IMG/VR virus record: IMGVR_UViG_3300035698_001018
Span: 1-23,442 of that record
Source: a virus
Length of the DNA stretch: 23,442 nt
Strand: one strand, 5' to 3'
Position 1 is the stretch's first letter; each line of letters begins with the position of its first letter. Of this stretch, positions 2,559-16,126 are shown piece after piece. The translations under genes were made by a program, and so were the position numbers. Below the pieces are notes generated by a model, which made no database searches, was not told the origin of the DNA, and saw only the letters and a program-made list of their open reading frames with translations.

Positions 2559-2609
2559 GAAACACCAACTCGGAGAAAATAAGACCGAAACACCAACTCG
2601 GAGAAAATA
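2559..2609 (+). repeat. Duplicated 23-bp leader carrying the ribosome binding site
   Basis: The 23-bp segments 2559-2581 and 2587-2609 are identical (both begin GAAACACCAACTCGGAG), giving a 28-bp period. Each copy contains the CGGAG ribosome binding sequence and ends in AAAATA; only the second runs into a start codon (ATG 2609). The first copy is followed by AGACC instead, so it is a ribosome binding site without a gene. Confidence 0.9.
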
Positions 2610-3037
2610 TGAAAAAATTAGTACAGGGCCACGGTGTAAATGACGCTAACTATTCGGTGACAACCCGTGTCAATGGTAAAAAATTATATTGCCCGTATTA
2701 TCAAAGATGGCGAACCATGCTTGGACGTGCATATTCACCGGCAGTTCATGCCATTCGACCGACATACAAAAATGTCACGGTCTGCGATGACTGGTTGTCA
2801 TTTACAAACTTTAGGCTGTGGATGGTTGACCAAGACTGGTCAGACAAAGAACTAGACAAGGACATAATTGAACCGGGCAATACTGTGTATTGCCCCGACA
2901 AATGTTGTTTTGTGTCAGGCGCACTAAATAGTTTACTACACAAAAACGAGGGTCTTAATAGTGCGTATCCAAGGGGGGGTCCACTTCGTGCCGCACACTT
3001 TAAAAAAATACCACGCCACTTGCTCGGTCAACAATAA
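2609..3037 (+). CDS. AP2-domain homing-endonuclease-like protein, 5' part of a frameshifted gene
   Basis: This 142-codon frame holds the N-terminal half of a widespread phage family that joins an HNH-like Cys/Trp-containing region to a C-terminal AP2 DNA-binding domain. The family pattern is visible as CPYYQRWRTMLGRAYS near residue 28, then RPTYKNVTVCDDWLSFTNF, LDKDIIEPGNTVYCPDKCCF and the linker before AP2. After YPRG the frame leaves the family pattern at a run of seven G (2973-2979) and ends in an unrelated 17-residue tail. Removing one G restores YPRGVHF and continues into the AP2 domain found in the other frame at 2961-3200. ATG 2609 has CGGAG 7 bases upstream and its own promoter. It behaves like a separately transcribed mobile or accessory gene. 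The family call is by remembered similarity; the frameshift is directly visible. Confidence 0.8.
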   Translation: MKKLVQGHGVNDANYSVTTRVNGKKLYCPYYQRWRTMLGRAYSPAVHAIRPTYKNVTVCDDWLSFTNFRLWMVDQDWSDKELDKDIIEPGNTVYCPDKCCFVSGALNSLLHKNEGLNSAYPRGGPLRAAHFKKIPRHLLGQQ

Positions 3038-3200: not shown

Positions 3201-3462
3201 CGTTTATTATTTTGGGCGCGGGTCGGAAAACTGTCTGGCTTTCGAATGCACGGACGGCGACGGAATACGGGTGTTTATTGGCAACGGTAAAGCTGGCGAA
3301 AAATCGCAGCACATGTTGATCCCGAAAAACCAAATCACCGAATTGATTAATTTTTTGACAGCGCTGCAAACCGACGACGTCAGAACATATTTAATTGATA
3401 AATTCGGCGGCAATCCTGAACGGTTTATTGAACGTCGGCAGACTAACGAAACCCCAGGCTGA
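3187..3462 (+). CDS. 91-residue phage protein of unknown function
   Basis: A soluble-looking 91-residue protein, with a probable beta-rich N-terminal half (around LAFECTDGDGIRVFI) and a helical C-terminal half (ITELINFLTALQ onward). No signal peptide or membrane segment is seen. Its ATG at 3187 lies within the last codons of the AP2 frame, a 14-base overlap, and only a weak AGAAG-like ribosome binding site precedes it, so it may depend on coupling. Its end overlaps the end of the leftward lipase gene by 20 bases (3443-3462). Codon use matches the polymerase gene. I do not recognise the family. Confidence 0.6.
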   Translation: MPVPDVYYFGRGSENCLAFECTDGDGIRVFIGNGKAGEKSQHMLIPKNQITELINFLTALQTDDVRTYLIDKFGGNPERFIERRQTNETPG

Positions 3463-4027
3463 CACCATAACCAGATTCAAGCATGTGGTCATCATAGCGC
3501 CCTTGCGTTTCACCAATCACCAACGCTTCGCACGGGTGGCGATACCCCCACAGGGGCCACGGGTGATCCGGCACGGCGTCTTCAGCGTTGACATACCGTT
3601 TGATTGGCACAGGCTTTAGAACCCGCACCATTTGACTGAACCCGCACCGGGGCGAACCGAACGTCACCAACGACAACGGAACGAACCCGGCATTGACTGC
3701 CAGTGCCGCCGTGATCGTCGCCTCTGCGCCGCCCTTAGAATGCCCTGCAAGGATGGTCGGGCGTCCGTTGGCGATGATCGGCAATAGGTCAGCCCAAACC
3801 AGCTTGACCGACTTGTAAAACCCGCTATGGGTCATTCCAACCGGTGACGCCCACGGCATAGCGCGAAGGTCTTTGATTGCGTCAGCTGCGTCGCTGGTAC
3901 CACGGAACGCAAGCAAGTCTGTGGTGCCGATTTGACTGTGTAAAACTTCAACGCCAGCCGCCTGAAATGTCGGTTCGTTGTTATAGGTGTCAACGCAGGA
4001 TTCGAAAACGTCGCAAAGGTCAACCAT
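3443..4027 (-). CDS. Class 3 lipase-like alpha/beta hydrolase in the lysis cassette
   Basis: A 194-residue serine hydrolase of the class 3 lipase type. It shows FRGT (41-44, oxyanion region), the nucleophile elbow GHSKGG with S97, TFGSPR (122-127), DAVP with the probable acid D150, and a probable catalytic H181 in DDHMLESGY. There is no signal peptide or membrane helix, so it starts out cytosolic. It would hydrolyse ester bonds, probably of host lipids. ATG 4027 is chosen because it overlaps the stop of the lipoprotein gene as TAATG; an upstream in-frame ATG at 4060 would overlap that gene by 34 bases. It is the last gene of the leftward operon, after membrane protein, endolysin and lipoprotein, which suggests a part in envelope disruption. 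Lipase fold is well supported; the substrate is inference. Confidence 0.85.
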   Translation of the reverse strand: MVDLCDVFESCVDTYNNEPTFQAAGVEVLHSQIGTTDLLAFRGTSDAADAIKDLRAMPWASPVGMTHSGFYKSVKLVWADLLPIIANGRPTILAGHSKGGAEATITAALAVNAGFVPLSLVTFGSPRCGFSQMVRVLKPVPIKRYVNAEDAVPDHPWPLWGYRHPCEALVIGETQGRYDDHMLESGYGVSLGFR

Positions 4028-4341
4028 TATTTGCAGCCCATACGGTCGCCAGCAATCCACAACAGGTCGCTGCGCTTGCGTTCGCCGGTTGTGTCAATGT
4101 CCAAGTTCCAAACCAGCGGTGCGGCAACAACAGCCGCAGCCGGGTTGACCACGGCACCCACAAGCATCATTCCCCATTTGCGAAGGGCTGACGCCTGTGA
4201 TTCAATTTTCAGTTTCTTGGCGATGGTGACGCGTTCGGCGTCAATACCTTCACAGGTCGTCGGGGCTGGTTTGTACGGGTCCATACTGGCGCACGCAGAC
4301 AACACCAGTGCAACAGCTGTCAAAACAATAAATTTTTTCAT
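4027..4341 (-). CDS. Small outer-membrane-type lipoprotein in the lysis cassette
   Basis: A 104-residue protein with a classic lipoprotein signal: positive MKK, a hydrophobic stretch and the lipobox LSAC with the lipidated Cys at position 17. The mature part has a helical charged region (about 35-55), a hydrophobic stretch (about 57-77, from WGMMLVGAVVNP) and a charged end. ATG 4341 is preferred over an in-frame TTG at 4347: it follows the endolysin stop by two bases (TGA CC ATG) and has AGGGA upstream. Its place between endolysin and lipase makes an outer-membrane lysis role plausible (spanin-like or a release factor), but it lacks the proline-rich sequence of a typical o-spanin, so this remains open. 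Confidence 0.75.
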   Translation of the reverse strand: MKKFIVLTAVALVLSACASMDPYKPAPTTCEGIDAERVTIAKKLKIESQASALRKWGMMLVGAVVNPAAAVVAAPLVWNLDIDTTGERKRSDLLWIAGDRMGCK

Positions 4342-4343
4342 GG

Positions 4344-4838
4344 TCAATTATCCCTGTATTTTTCAATGAAATCAGAAACTTTTCCAGCGCCCTGCGCGGT
4401 GTTGTAGTGGTCTTTCCAATACTGCGCCAGACCTTCAATGTCGTCAGCGTCGGGCAACGGTGCCGACACCATCCAATAACGCAACCGCGCCATCGCACAA
4501 GCGAACCGCATATCGCAAATCAACTTCGTCACCAAGTCGTGACCGTTGACGTTGCCCCAATCAATGCTGGTGCTTGAAATAACATTCACAGCGCGTGCAA
4601 ACCTGTCGCCAAGTTGTTCGCGGTGGGTCATATATCGGTTCGCAATGTCAATCGCGGTGTTCGGTTCCATTTGGAAAAACCCGACCGCCGGACCACCGCC
4701 AAGCTGTTTAATATATGTCAGGTTGCTTTCAACCAACGCAGTTCCGACAAGTAAATTTTCAGACGCCTGTGACCACATGCCCATTTTTATCAGGGTGTCA
4801 ACAACGACCAACGACCGGAATTGCGACGGGTCAACCAC
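4344..4838 (-). CDS. Transglycosylase-like endolysin
   Basis: A 164-residue lysozyme-superfamily protein that would cut the glycan strands of peptidoglycan. The probable catalytic Glu is E37 in TALVESNL, followed by GGGPAVGFFQMEP (47-59), the G-x-x-Q-M-x-P signature of a common phage endolysin family. There is no signal peptide, so export would depend on a holin. The start is GTG at 4838; the sequence GTGGTTGA places it 8 bases inside the end of the upstream membrane protein gene, and no ATG alternative exists nearby. The ribosome binding site is poor, which fits coupling to the upstream gene. Alternative reading: a virion-associated lytic transglycosylase, less likely given the lysis-gene neighbours. 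Confidence 0.8.
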   Translation of the reverse strand: MVDPSQFRSLVVVDTLIKMGMWSQASENLLVGTALVESNLTYIKQLGGGPAVGFFQMEPNTAIDIANRYMTHREQLGDRFARAVNVISSTSIDWGNVNGHDLVTKLICDMRFACAMARLRYWMVSAPLPDADDIEGLAQYWKDHYNTAQGAGKVSDFIEKYRDN

Positions 4839-5157
4839 CGGTTTTCGCTTTCAATATTTCCTGAATGCCAAGCCACAACGCAGCCAGCAACCCGACCGTC
4901 ACAGCTGCAATGACTGATTTCCGCATTTGCTTGACCATCGTTTCATTTGCCGTTCGCTGACGTCTGACCCATGCGTTATCAACCTGAATTTGAATGGTCG
5001 ATTCAGGGTTGGATAGGTCATGGCCTAACAGCTGAAAAATTTCATGGGTCGCGGCGATGGCGGCACGTTTTCCGATTTCGTGTGCTTGGTGCCGGGTCAC
5101 ATATTGATCGGCGTTCTGTTTATCGGCAACGCGCTTTTCTGCGTCAACTTCAGTCAC
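4831..5157 (-). CDS. Membrane protein with one C-terminal helix, candidate holin
   Basis: A 108-residue protein with a charged, mostly helical N-terminal part and a single predicted membrane helix at about 82-98 (VIAAVTVGLLAALWLGI) followed by a short charged tail. A basic patch (MVKQMRKS) just before the helix suggests the N-terminus stays in the cytoplasm. It lies directly upstream of the endolysin and overlaps it by 8 bases, the usual position of a holin. It recalls small membrane proteins annotated as DUF6127-like in alphaproteobacterial phages and gene transfer agents, but that is from memory. The start is GTG at 5157, within a GTGA overlap with the upstream gene. Holin function is inferred from position and topology only. 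Confidence 0.65.
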   Translation of the reverse strand: MTEVDAEKRVADKQNADQYVTRHQAHEIGKRAAIAATHEIFQLLGHDLSNPESTIQIQVDNAWVRRQRTANETMVKQMRKSVIAAVTVGLLAALWLGIQEILKAKTGG

Positions 5158-5351
5158 GATTGTGACGCCTTCTTTTTAGCAGCTTTTGGAAGCGGCTTTT
5201 TAGCAGCTTCCAGTTCGGCGGTCAGCGCAACGATTTGTTCACGCGCGTCGTCGCGTTCGACACACGCCTGAATTTCACCGGACATAGCCCGGTCGCGTTG
5301 CATTGATATTGCGTCGATTATGCACTGTGGATTTACCTGTCTGCCGGTCAT
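5154..5351 (-). CDS. Small coiled-coil protein, unknown function
   Basis: A 65-residue protein whose middle (about 18-50, from MQRDRAMSGEIQ to LTAELEAAKK) is a probable coiled coil, followed by a Lys/Ala-rich basic tail. No membrane segment or signal is present, so it is not an i-spanin as it stands. ATG 5351 has AGGGG 7 bases upstream. Its stop overlaps the GTG of the candidate holin as GTGA. Similar small coiled-coil genes sit between tail fibre and lysis genes in many phages; the function is not known to me. Confidence 0.65.
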   Translation of the reverse strand: MTGRQVNPQCIIDAISMQRDRAMSGEIQACVERDDAREQIVALTAELEAAKKPLPKAAKKKASQS

Positions 5352-5373
5352 TTCACACCCCTAGTTTATTAAA

Positions 5374-5670
5374 TTAGTTTACGTCAACAGCTGCCGAATA
5401 AATATCAAGTGACTTCAGCGCAGCATATGCACCCGCAACGCTGGCGTCGTCGGTCGCAGGGTCAAACGCGAACTTGTGTTTGTCCATTGTCGGGGCTTGT
5501 AATCGTGAACTTTCGGTGCGGGCTGTCGCGTTTTTATAACAAGCCACGTCAACCATTAAAAACCATTCGGTTTCGCCGTCTTTTTTACACGCGCGAACGT
5601 CAGTCACACGAACATAACCGTTGGCCTGACTTGCACCGCCTTGTAGTGGAACCGTGATTTTAAGTGCCAT
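5374..5670 (-). CDS. Tail-fibre-associated small phage protein
   Basis: A 98-residue protein, mainly beta-strand by appearance, with the N-terminal pattern MALKITVPLQ...YVRVTDVRA and a C-terminal AYAALKSLDIYSAAVDV. Proteins with this arrangement (a YVRV strand and an ending of the AYxxLKxLxxxxxAVD type) are common next to tail fibre genes of marine siphoviruses, but no function is established to my knowledge. ATG 5670 follows the fibre stop codon by one base, and its AGGAG ribosome binding site lies inside the end of the fibre gene, so the two are coupled. A role in fibre assembly or in the baseplate is an inference from position. Confidence 0.65.
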   Translation of the reverse strand: MALKITVPLQGGASQANGYVRVTDVRACKKDGETEWFLMVDVACYKNATARTESSRLQAPTMDKHKFAFDPATDDASVAGAYAALKSLDIYSAAVDVN

Positions 5671-5671
5671 T

Positions 5672-6835
5672 TTATATTGCTCCTAATGTTGGAAGTTTGT
5701 TTGCGGTCAGGGCATTCGCCAATTTCATTCCGAAACCCGGCACCATTTCGTCAAGGGTTTTCCGCAGGGTTTCAAACATCGCGCGTTGTTGCCAGATCGC
5801 ACCGTTTGCAAGTTTCATCCAAGGTTGAACGACTATGAAATCATTTTCGCTAGACAGCACGCCAAGTTCTTTTAGGCGGGTGTCGTTGCGTTCTACGAAC
5901 CTATCCCACTCTGTTTCAACAATGCCACGAGGGCTTGCCGAGTAGTCAAGTTGCCGCATGAGCATAGCGTCATCTTCGTGATCCAATGCAGCAATCGTGG
6001 TATTAGTCACATGTAGGTCGCCGTTTCCTTTAAGCAATAGGCGGGTTGTGATAAGGTTCTCAATTGTGAAAATGTTAGCCGTTGCGCCGAACGATGTTAC
6101 GCTTGTTCCGTTCGCTTTATATGCGGAAATATCAAACGTGCCGCCAGATGATGACGTATCTGTGGTTATCTCTGTAGCCGCAACAGCATTCAATGTCATA
6201 GACACAGAGGAAGTGCCAAGGGATTGTATATTAACGCCCCCTGTACTTGCGCCACCCTTTTGAATTTGCAGGAATGTGTCTGTCTCTGTTGTCCCAGTAA
6301 CACCGTGAGCAACGTCAGAAGATTTCAGGGCAAAGGCTTGGTCGTCATTCGCGCCTTGATTGATCGTCAGGCCTTGCGTCATATTGCTGTTGGCCGTGTC
6401 TCCAATGTAAACAGTATCATCAAATATCGCACTGGTTGAACTTAATGTTAAATGGTTAGCCACGCCAGTGACGCCGAAAGTCAGAACATCCGAGCTAGAC
6501 GAAAGTGACCAACTTTTTCCGCCTGTGTCATCAAGTGTCAGTCGCGCACTGGTAGCATCGGATATAACCACGCCGCCTGAAAACGCACCAGCACCAAGCC
6601 ACGTCACAACACCTGTTGACGCATTGACACTGTACTGCGTGACCCAATTCGTGCCATCCCACCGTTTCAACACCCAAGGCGTCGCGGCGTCGTCAAGCCA
6701 ATTCATTCCGACATATTTTGTCGTCGGTGCCGTTGAACCTTTGTTGTCGGATGCCAGCGCTTGAAACGCCAGATTCAAATCTGCGCGCGTCGCTGGGAAT
6801 GCCTGATCGGCAATTACATAGTCATGCTGGCTCAT
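5672..6835 (-). CDS. Tail fibre / receptor-binding protein
   Basis: A 387-residue fibre-like protein located right after the J-like tip gene. The N-terminal 1-80 residues (ADQAFPATRADLN, then WLDDA...KRWDGTNWV) resemble the conserved attachment part of many phage fibres. Residues of about 85-280 are Ser/Thr/Gly-rich and strand-like, as in trimeric fibre shafts. The C-terminal 290-387 region (DDAMLMRQLDY, then a helical stretch rich in Trp and Glu) is likely a tip or trimerisation part. ATG 6835 has AAAGG at a suitable distance. The middle of the gene differs in base composition from its neighbours by eye, which fits exchange of the receptor-binding part. The receptor is unknown. Confidence 0.8.
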   Translation of the reverse strand: MSQHDYVIADQAFPATRADLNLAFQALASDNKGSTAPTTKYVGMNWLDDAATPWVLKRWDGTNWVTQYSVNASTGVVTWLGAGAFSGGVVISDATSARLTLDDTGGKSWSLSSSSDVLTFGVTGVANHLTLSSTSAIFDDTVYIGDTANSNMTQGLTINQGANDDQAFALKSSDVAHGVTGTTETDTFLQIQKGGASTGGVNIQSLGTSSVSMTLNAVAATEITTDTSSSGGTFDISAYKANGTSVTSFGATANIFTIENLITTRLLLKGNGDLHVTNTTIAALDHEDDAMLMRQLDYSASPRGIVETEWDRFVERNDTRLKELGVLSSENDFIVVQPWMKLANGAIWQQRAMFETLRKTLDEMVPGFGMKLANALTANKLPTLGAI

Positions 6836-15595: not shown

Positions 15596-16126
15596 TTAAA
15601 CCTTTTTGACCAGCCAAGCGCCGTTTTCGTCTTTGCGCTTGTTGGCATAGTGCAGTTCGGCGTCAAACGGTACACCGTTAACGTCTTCTTCAAACACGTC
15701 TTGCGTTGTGGGGGCTACAGGGGCGACCGGTGGCGTTGTGGGGGCTACAGGGGCGACCGGTGGCGTTGCAGGGACCACAGGGGCCACAGGGGCGACCGGT
15801 GGCGTTGCTGCCGGGGCTTCGTCTTCGCCTTCGGTGTCGTCTTCGCCTTCGGTGTCGTCTTCGCCTTCGGTGTCGTCAACCAGCGGTTCACCGTCCGGGC
15901 CAAGTTCCTGAAGGTTTTGCATTGCCCCACGATCAACGGCGGAATGAATACCCAAGATTTCACCGATTTTGAATTGCACTGGCGCGCTGGCTTCAAACCG
16001 TCCGCCGCCGTCGAATGTTTCAAGTTCTTTCAGCGCGTGCTTGCGTCGTCGCGCTTGGTCATCGTTGATTGTAACGATACTGCCCGCAGCCATGTTTAGA
16101 ATTGCTAATGTTCGAAAAACTCGCAT
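15596..16126 (-). CDS. FI-position protein with acidic and proline-rich repeats
   Basis: A 176-residue protein located between the capsid and FII-like genes, where lambda has FI (a head-maturation and packaging factor). Three parts are visible: a conserved-looking N-terminal domain (1-80, MRVFRTLAILNM, APVQFKIGEILGIHSAV); a low-complexity linker (about 85-140) made of three DTEGED repeats and three TPPVAPVAP repeats; and a C-terminal module NGVPFDAELHYANKRKDENG, a pattern I recall on several phage proteins. The acidic linker recalls the charged, disordered nature of lambda FI. ATG 16126 has AGGGG 7 bases upstream. FI equivalence rests on position and character, not on clear similarity. Confidence 0.7.
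   Translation of the reverse strand: MRVFRTLAILNMAAGSIVTINDDQARRRKHALKELETFDGGGRFEASAPVQFKIGEILGIHSAVDRGAMQNLQELGPDGEPLVDDTEGEDDTEGEDDTEGEDEAPAATPPVAPVAPVVPATPPVAPVAPTTPPVAPVAPTTQDVFEEDVNGVPFDAELHYANKRKDENGAWLVKKV
15706..15804 (-). repeat. Proline-rich tandem repeats, 30-bp unit
   Basis: Bases 15706-15735 and 15736-15765 are identical 30-bp units, followed by a diverged 39-bp third unit (15766-15804). On the minus strand they encode PPVAPVAP-type decapeptides. The length keeps the frame, so copy number can vary without breaking the gene. Confidence 0.9.
15819..15872 (-). repeat. Three perfect 18-bp repeats encoding DTEGED
   Basis: Units 15819-15836, 15837-15854 and 15855-15872 are identical (tcgtcttcgccttcggtg on the plus strand) and encode the acidic hexapeptide DTEGED on the minus strand. 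They lie next to the proline-rich array in the same gene. Confidence 0.92.

Follow-up and report, generated by a model that had tools for sequence, protein, structure and literature searches.

Spanins (Rz/Rz1 of lambda; gp11 of T1) occupy the slot after the endolysin, include a lipoprotein, and disrupt the outer membrane. Kongari et al. (2018) could recognize no spanin in 91 of the 677 phages that they surveyed and do not mention lipases (PMC6139136); whether spanin-less phages encode disruptins or other outer membrane disruptors was described as open in a 2026 paper (PMC12819732). Disruptins, as in phiKT, are likewise non-spanin disruptors of the outer membrane and are short, cationic, amphipathic peptides of the antimicrobial type (PMC12819732). 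A phospholipase has been proposed to serve Gram-negative lysis without spanins in Wolbachia phage WO, whose putative lytic cassette is based on a patatin (PMC9203015), while the LysB mycolylarabinogalactan esterases of mycobacteriophages are serine esterases that end the lysis cassette and act on the outermost lipid layer (PMC6116114).

The locus studied here, in which a lipoprotein gene and a class 3 lipase gene end a lysis cassette, resembles and differs from each of these systems. Like spanins, it lies after the endolysin, includes a lipoprotein, and has a proposed role in outer membrane disruption; unlike them, it has no i-spanin partner, encodes an enzyme rather than a membrane-fusing protein, and has its lipoprotein gene coupled to a lipase gene. 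The WO cassette uses the patatin family, has no endolysin, and carries an ankyrin protein where our locus has the lipoprotein, and the lipase, a 194-amino-acid enzyme with a net charge of -5, is not a peptide of the disruptin type. The parallel to LysB drawn in the original prediction holds in idea, but no sequence relation to the LysB/cutinase-like family was found: a Pfam scan of the lipase returned Lipase_3 and weak matches to alpha/beta-hydrolase families and did not return cutinase. Its Gram-negative-type cassette, lipoprotein partner, and presumably phospholipid substrate set it further apart from cutinase-like LysB. The PHROGs family to which it belongs, phrog_21992, is catalogued as "other" rather than lysis, with no link to a lipoprotein. 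A full-text search combining "lysis cassette" with "class 3 lipase" returned no paper, and no report of a lipoprotein-lipase pair was found in the open-access literature searched. The pair may represent a previously undescribed means of lysing Gram-negative cells; lying in the spanin slot, it is a concrete, genetically testable candidate for spanin-less phages, and if the proposal is true, lipolytic lysis enzymes, known from mycobacteriophages, extend to Gram-negative hosts.

The stretch of DNA analyzed, referred to here as the window, comprises 23,442 bases and is a linear viral fragment from IMG/VR. On its minus strand, a lambda-like structural module extends from the terminase and portal region to the tail genes and is followed by a tightly packed lysis run in the order 65-amino-acid open reading frame (ORF), C-terminal-transmembrane (TM) protein, endolysin, lipoprotein, and lipase. 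The lipase is the final gene of the late operon, and the plus-strand genes are convergent to the operon end. The 65-amino-acid ORF (5154 to 5351, minus strand) overlaps the TM protein gene by 4 nt and is, from its start context, probably cotranscribed with the cassette. The 108-amino-acid TM protein (4831 to 5157, minus strand) matches phrog_6420 (7.7e-10), has a single C-terminal TM segment at residue 81, and is a putative holin-class protein. Its gene overlaps by 8 nt that of a 164-amino-acid lysozyme/transglycosylase-like endolysin without a signal peptide (4344 to 4838, minus strand; phrog_3108, 5.5e-36). The endolysin had no match in Pfam; it contains the lysozyme-like motif ESN...GFFQMEP and has relatives in 146 phages, some of them annotated as endolysin or lytic murein transglycosylase. 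The ATG of the lipoprotein gene (4027 to 4341, minus strand; 104 amino acids; MKKFIVLTAVALVLSAC) begins at 4341, 2 nt past the endolysin stop codon TGA, and the gene shares 1 nt with the lipase gene (TAATG), in line with the prediction that the lipase follows the three other genes without gaps. Shine-Dalgarno matches at the cassette starts are modest, which fits translational coupling. The lipoprotein, identified by a lipobox scan with a weak LPAM_1 match, has the lipobox LSAC at its N terminus and, besides the lipobox cysteine, two more cysteines near its N and C termini; it is the only real lipoprotein in the window.

The lipase ORF was verified in coordinates and strand (3443 to 4027, minus strand), and its product matches Pfam Lipase_3 (PF01764; 1.9e-15; 57.5 bits against a cut-off of 22) and phrog_21992, "esterase/lipase" (6e-28). 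The nucleophile Ser97 sits in a GxSxG nucleophile elbow (GHSKGG), and an alignment of 24 phage homologues shows no variation at S97, D150, or H181, confirming the predicted full Ser-Asp-His set. The protein has neither a signal peptide nor an N-terminal TM segment. An AlphaFold2 model, built from 20 sequences from lipase loci, has an alpha/beta-hydrolase fold (pLDDT, 93.6; pTM, 0.92), and a Foldseek search of the PDB with this model placed plant phospholipases A1 (7x0d and 7x0c; E value to phospholipase A1, 2e-9), fungal class 3 lipases, and feruloyl esterase A at the top, bearing out the proposed structural kinship with class 3 lipases. A profile search of PDB sequences returned mono- and diacylglycerol lipases at about 8e-29. 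The ORF is a genuine gene with the features of a class 3 lipase, and its product is predicted to hydrolyze lipid esters.

An alignment-based scan for related lipases yielded 80 viral and 7 bacterial loci. The lipoprotein and lipase genes form a translationally coupled pair that recurs in many other viruses. In a maximum likelihood tree, from which near copies had been taken out, 40 lipases form one clade (support, 100/99) of Burkholderiales phages and prophages, including Burkholderia and Paraburkholderia prophages; these lipases match phrog_21992, as the window lipase does. A signal peptidase II (SPII) lipoprotein is encoded upstream of the lipase in all 40 members, immediately so in 38 (most recognized by a scripted lipobox test and four by eye) and one gene further in loci L070 and L099. 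The background frequency of lipoboxes was 1 in 133 called genes in Shewanella phage QDWS and most of Burkholderia phage BgManors32. Among 35 scripted pairs, the window included, the junction is a 4-nt overlap in 27 and a 1-nt overlap in 6; QDWS and BgManors32 have the 4-nt overlap, downstream of a GH19 endolysin. Between lipoprotein and lipase, L070 carries a 99-amino-acid ORF (5591 to 5890) whose start resembles a signal peptide and which contains two cysteines, and extra small lipoproteins without an i-spanin partner occur in some Burkholderiales cassettes (L101, 5147 to 5347; L050, 4106 to 4411; L068, 1301 to 1651). QDWS (OK094664.1) and "Hujiaoplasma phage zrk29-1" (OP650936.1) are of equal length, and their lipase and endolysin matches are 100% identical; these genes are most closely related to those of Burkholderia phages, and the host label of one or the other may be wrong.

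The Burkholderiales partner lipoproteins have the lipid-bearing cysteine and two further conserved cysteines, and were modeled as a four-helix bundle (pLDDT, 77) with no PDB match at an E value of 0.001 or below. A lipoprotein with two further cysteines also precedes the lipase in L051, outside the 40-lipase clade. The window lipoprotein has the identical slot and no detectable homology to the Burkholderiales lipoproteins, so the two genes may have been brought together on more than one occasion. Searches with it found no match among GenBank phages and two in IMG/VR, both of signal-peptide length. A scan with the lipase found the distant locus L002, whose lipase is 33% identical to that of the window. 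Its gene order is that of the window: the endolysin is phrog_3108-like, the next ORF carries TM segments plus a lipobox, and the lipase comes last. In L002 (5399 to 5965) and L051 (5034 to 5654), TM segments and lipobox share one open frame before the lipase, which reflects either an internal start or the fusion of the two-TM protein to the lipoprotein; the alignment of two-TM proteins was too variable for use in scanning. Relatives of the window selected by terminase, most of them short fragments, had neither the lipase nor a window-type endolysin.

Lipases of this kind come last in cassettes whose endolysins are of unrelated families: GH19 and GH24 among members of the Burkholderiales clade, GH24 in L055, GH108 in L051, and GH25 in L028. 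The phrog_3108 endolysin accompanies the lipase in both the window and L002, and L031 has a weak M15-like match near its lipase. Phage Lipase_3 genes were also found away from lysis genes, in cyanophage P-SSM2, CrV-01T, L029, and L063, and the family as such is therefore no marker of lysis.

To look for spanins, we used a topology scan for an ORF with an N-terminal TM segment and an adjacent or embedded lipoprotein; it recovered Rz/Rz1 of lambda as a control and misses some spanins. No two-component pair was detected on either strand of the window, in agreement with the prediction that no canonical spanin pair is visible; because the record is a linear fragment, this absence cannot be claimed for the whole genome. 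The scan was likewise negative for the complete QDWS genome and for positions 1 to 50000 of BgManors32, and positions 49000 to 59762 of the latter held a single lipobox-like ORF of doubtful reality. The original prediction had also proposed a survey of spanins in phages with this gene. Under strict topology, an i-/o-spanin pair was present in none of 31 pair loci, against 7 of 10 GH19 phages without Lipase_3 (Fisher P value, 5e-6, uncorrected for relatedness). Under relaxed limits, the counts were 1 of 31 and 10 of 13, the sole case being a weak 59-amino-acid candidate beside the lipase's own lipoprotein. The Rz families PF03245 and PF10721 were absent from 29 pair- or lipase-bearing viral records and from QDWS and BgManors32, and were detected in 4 of 6 controls. 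Since shared ancestry is uncorrected and the scan misses some spanins, these counts are support and not proof. A "lipase" of phiPSA1, considered as a spanin-bearing counterexample, was dropped when its sequence proved SGNH-like and not Lipase_3.

Within the window's endolysin family, Acetobacter phage phiAX1 has a spanin pair in the lipase slot. Some phrog_3108 phages have neither a lipase nor a detected spanin pair, suggesting that the cassette may be functional with neither present. The nearest relative of the cassette is L217, whose TM protein, 68% identical to that of the window, heads a run of endolysin (phrog_465), TM protein, overlapping i-/o-spanin pair (5369 to 5611 and 5514 to 5756), and an ORF containing a CxxHDxxY motif. 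Spanins can thus occupy the slot seen in the window. We had initially taken L217 as spanin-free, with a last gene of DUF1353/phospholipase-A2-like type; a scan of all ORFs revealed the spanin pair, and the DUF1353 match (0.0047) lies below the cut-off, so L217 is not counted in favor of spanin replacement. One DUF1353 member has been reported as a phospholipase A2, with a possible perturbation of the outer membrane beside a phage-type muramidase suggested by the authors (PMC11525133). The last ORF of L217 (5731 to 6069), for which a family search of the record gave no match, is a possible phospholipase A2-like lysis accessory, and if it is a lipid hydrolase, such an enzyme could coexist with spanins.

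We consider that the lipoprotein and lipase form a two-gene outer membrane lysis step in a Gram-negative host, with a probability of roughly 50%. The best reading is of a lipolytic step that acts beside or instead of spanins. From the gene packing, the late operon would make the membrane protein, endolysin, lipoprotein, and lipase jointly. Both endolysin and lipase lack a signal peptide and, if they behave as lambda R does, would remain cytoplasmic up to the opening of the inner membrane by the holin-class protein; the lipoprotein, given its lipobox, would have been exported and lipid anchored in the envelope beforehand. The released endolysin would cut the wall, and the lipase, presumably active and needed for lysis, would hydrolyze phospholipid ester bonds and destabilize the outer membrane; the lipoprotein would probably guide or activate this enzyme. 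The functional unit is likely the lipoprotein plus the lipase and not the lipase alone.

The gene arrangement first described is confirmed, and its interpretation, that a lipid hydrolase does the outer membrane step in place of spanins, is supported in part. Unrelated endolysins, a coupled lipoprotein, and the absence of an adjoining i-/o-spanin pair, which phages with these endolysin families usually carry, fit this interpretation; they fall short of proof on an incomplete contig whose lipoprotein is arguable as a unimolecular spanin. Judged from sequence, the candidate module is the lipoprotein plus the lipase, recurrent in spanin-poor cassettes. More tentatively, and with somewhat less conviction than for the lysis step itself, it could represent a third class of outer membrane lysis module after spanins and disruptins, one that acts enzymatically by hydrolyzing lipids, is coupled to various endolysins, and occurs widely in Burkholderiales phages as well as in distant ones like that of the window.

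Of the competing explanations, a unimolecular spanin is possible but not favored, and we hold it to be unlikely. The window lipoprotein would itself fuse both membranes, and the lipase would be an accessory for debris clearance or membrane weakening. The lipoprotein lies directly after the endolysin, like gp11 in T1, and has, besides its lipobox, an Ala/Val-rich hydrophobic segment from about residue 59 (Kyte-Doolittle, 2.02) with 24 residues after it. However, this segment contains N-P and a second proline, and on an approximate insertion-energy scale it scored +3.2, against -5.5 for the TM segment of T1 gp11; with this control, a spanin label assigned from hydropathy alone was dropped. Several partner lipoproteins pass the same Kyte-Doolittle threshold, which alone is therefore not discriminating, and partner lipoproteins in other phages were modeled as soluble bundles. 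Slightly less probable still is that these are accessory genes of the moron or lysogenic-conversion type at the end of the late operon, with a lipase that serves the lysogen or virion infection and not lysis. The lipase adjoins an integrase in QDWS and a recombinase in L002, and in other GH19 phages the corresponding position, next to a spanin pair, is taken by an unrelated "lipase" of SGNH type. Against this, the window has no integrase, its lipase is translationally coupled to the lysis genes, and such lipases recur next to several unrelated kinds of endolysin together with a coupled lipoprotein; spanin pairs went undetected where the lipoprotein-lipase pair is present. An esterase that assists the endolysin or release by acting on another substrate (such as peptidoglycan O-acetyl groups or the polyester or lipid stores of the host) seems improbable; feruloyl esterase A shares the fold family and the lipase comes after several endolysin types, but the closest structures are phospholipases A1 and glyceride lipases, and the lipoprotein partner and missing spanins would be left unexplained. 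Least probable is a lipase toxin with a lipoprotein immunity protein, directed against competing cells or phages as in type VI secretion (T6SS) Tle/Tli pairs, in some of which the lipase and lipoprotein genes are similarly adjacent, as no VgrG, PAAR, or adaptor genes were noticed in the pair neighborhoods read, the pairs lie in cassettes with endolysins, and the window lipase has no export signal.

Two further ORFs of the window were noted. A candidate homing endonuclease of HNH type (2609 to 3037, plus strand; phrog_953, 5.7e-53) lies directly downstream of a phage DNA polymerase, and an ORF in the head-gene region (15596 to 16126, minus strand) contains repeated EGEDDT and VAPTTPP low-complexity units.
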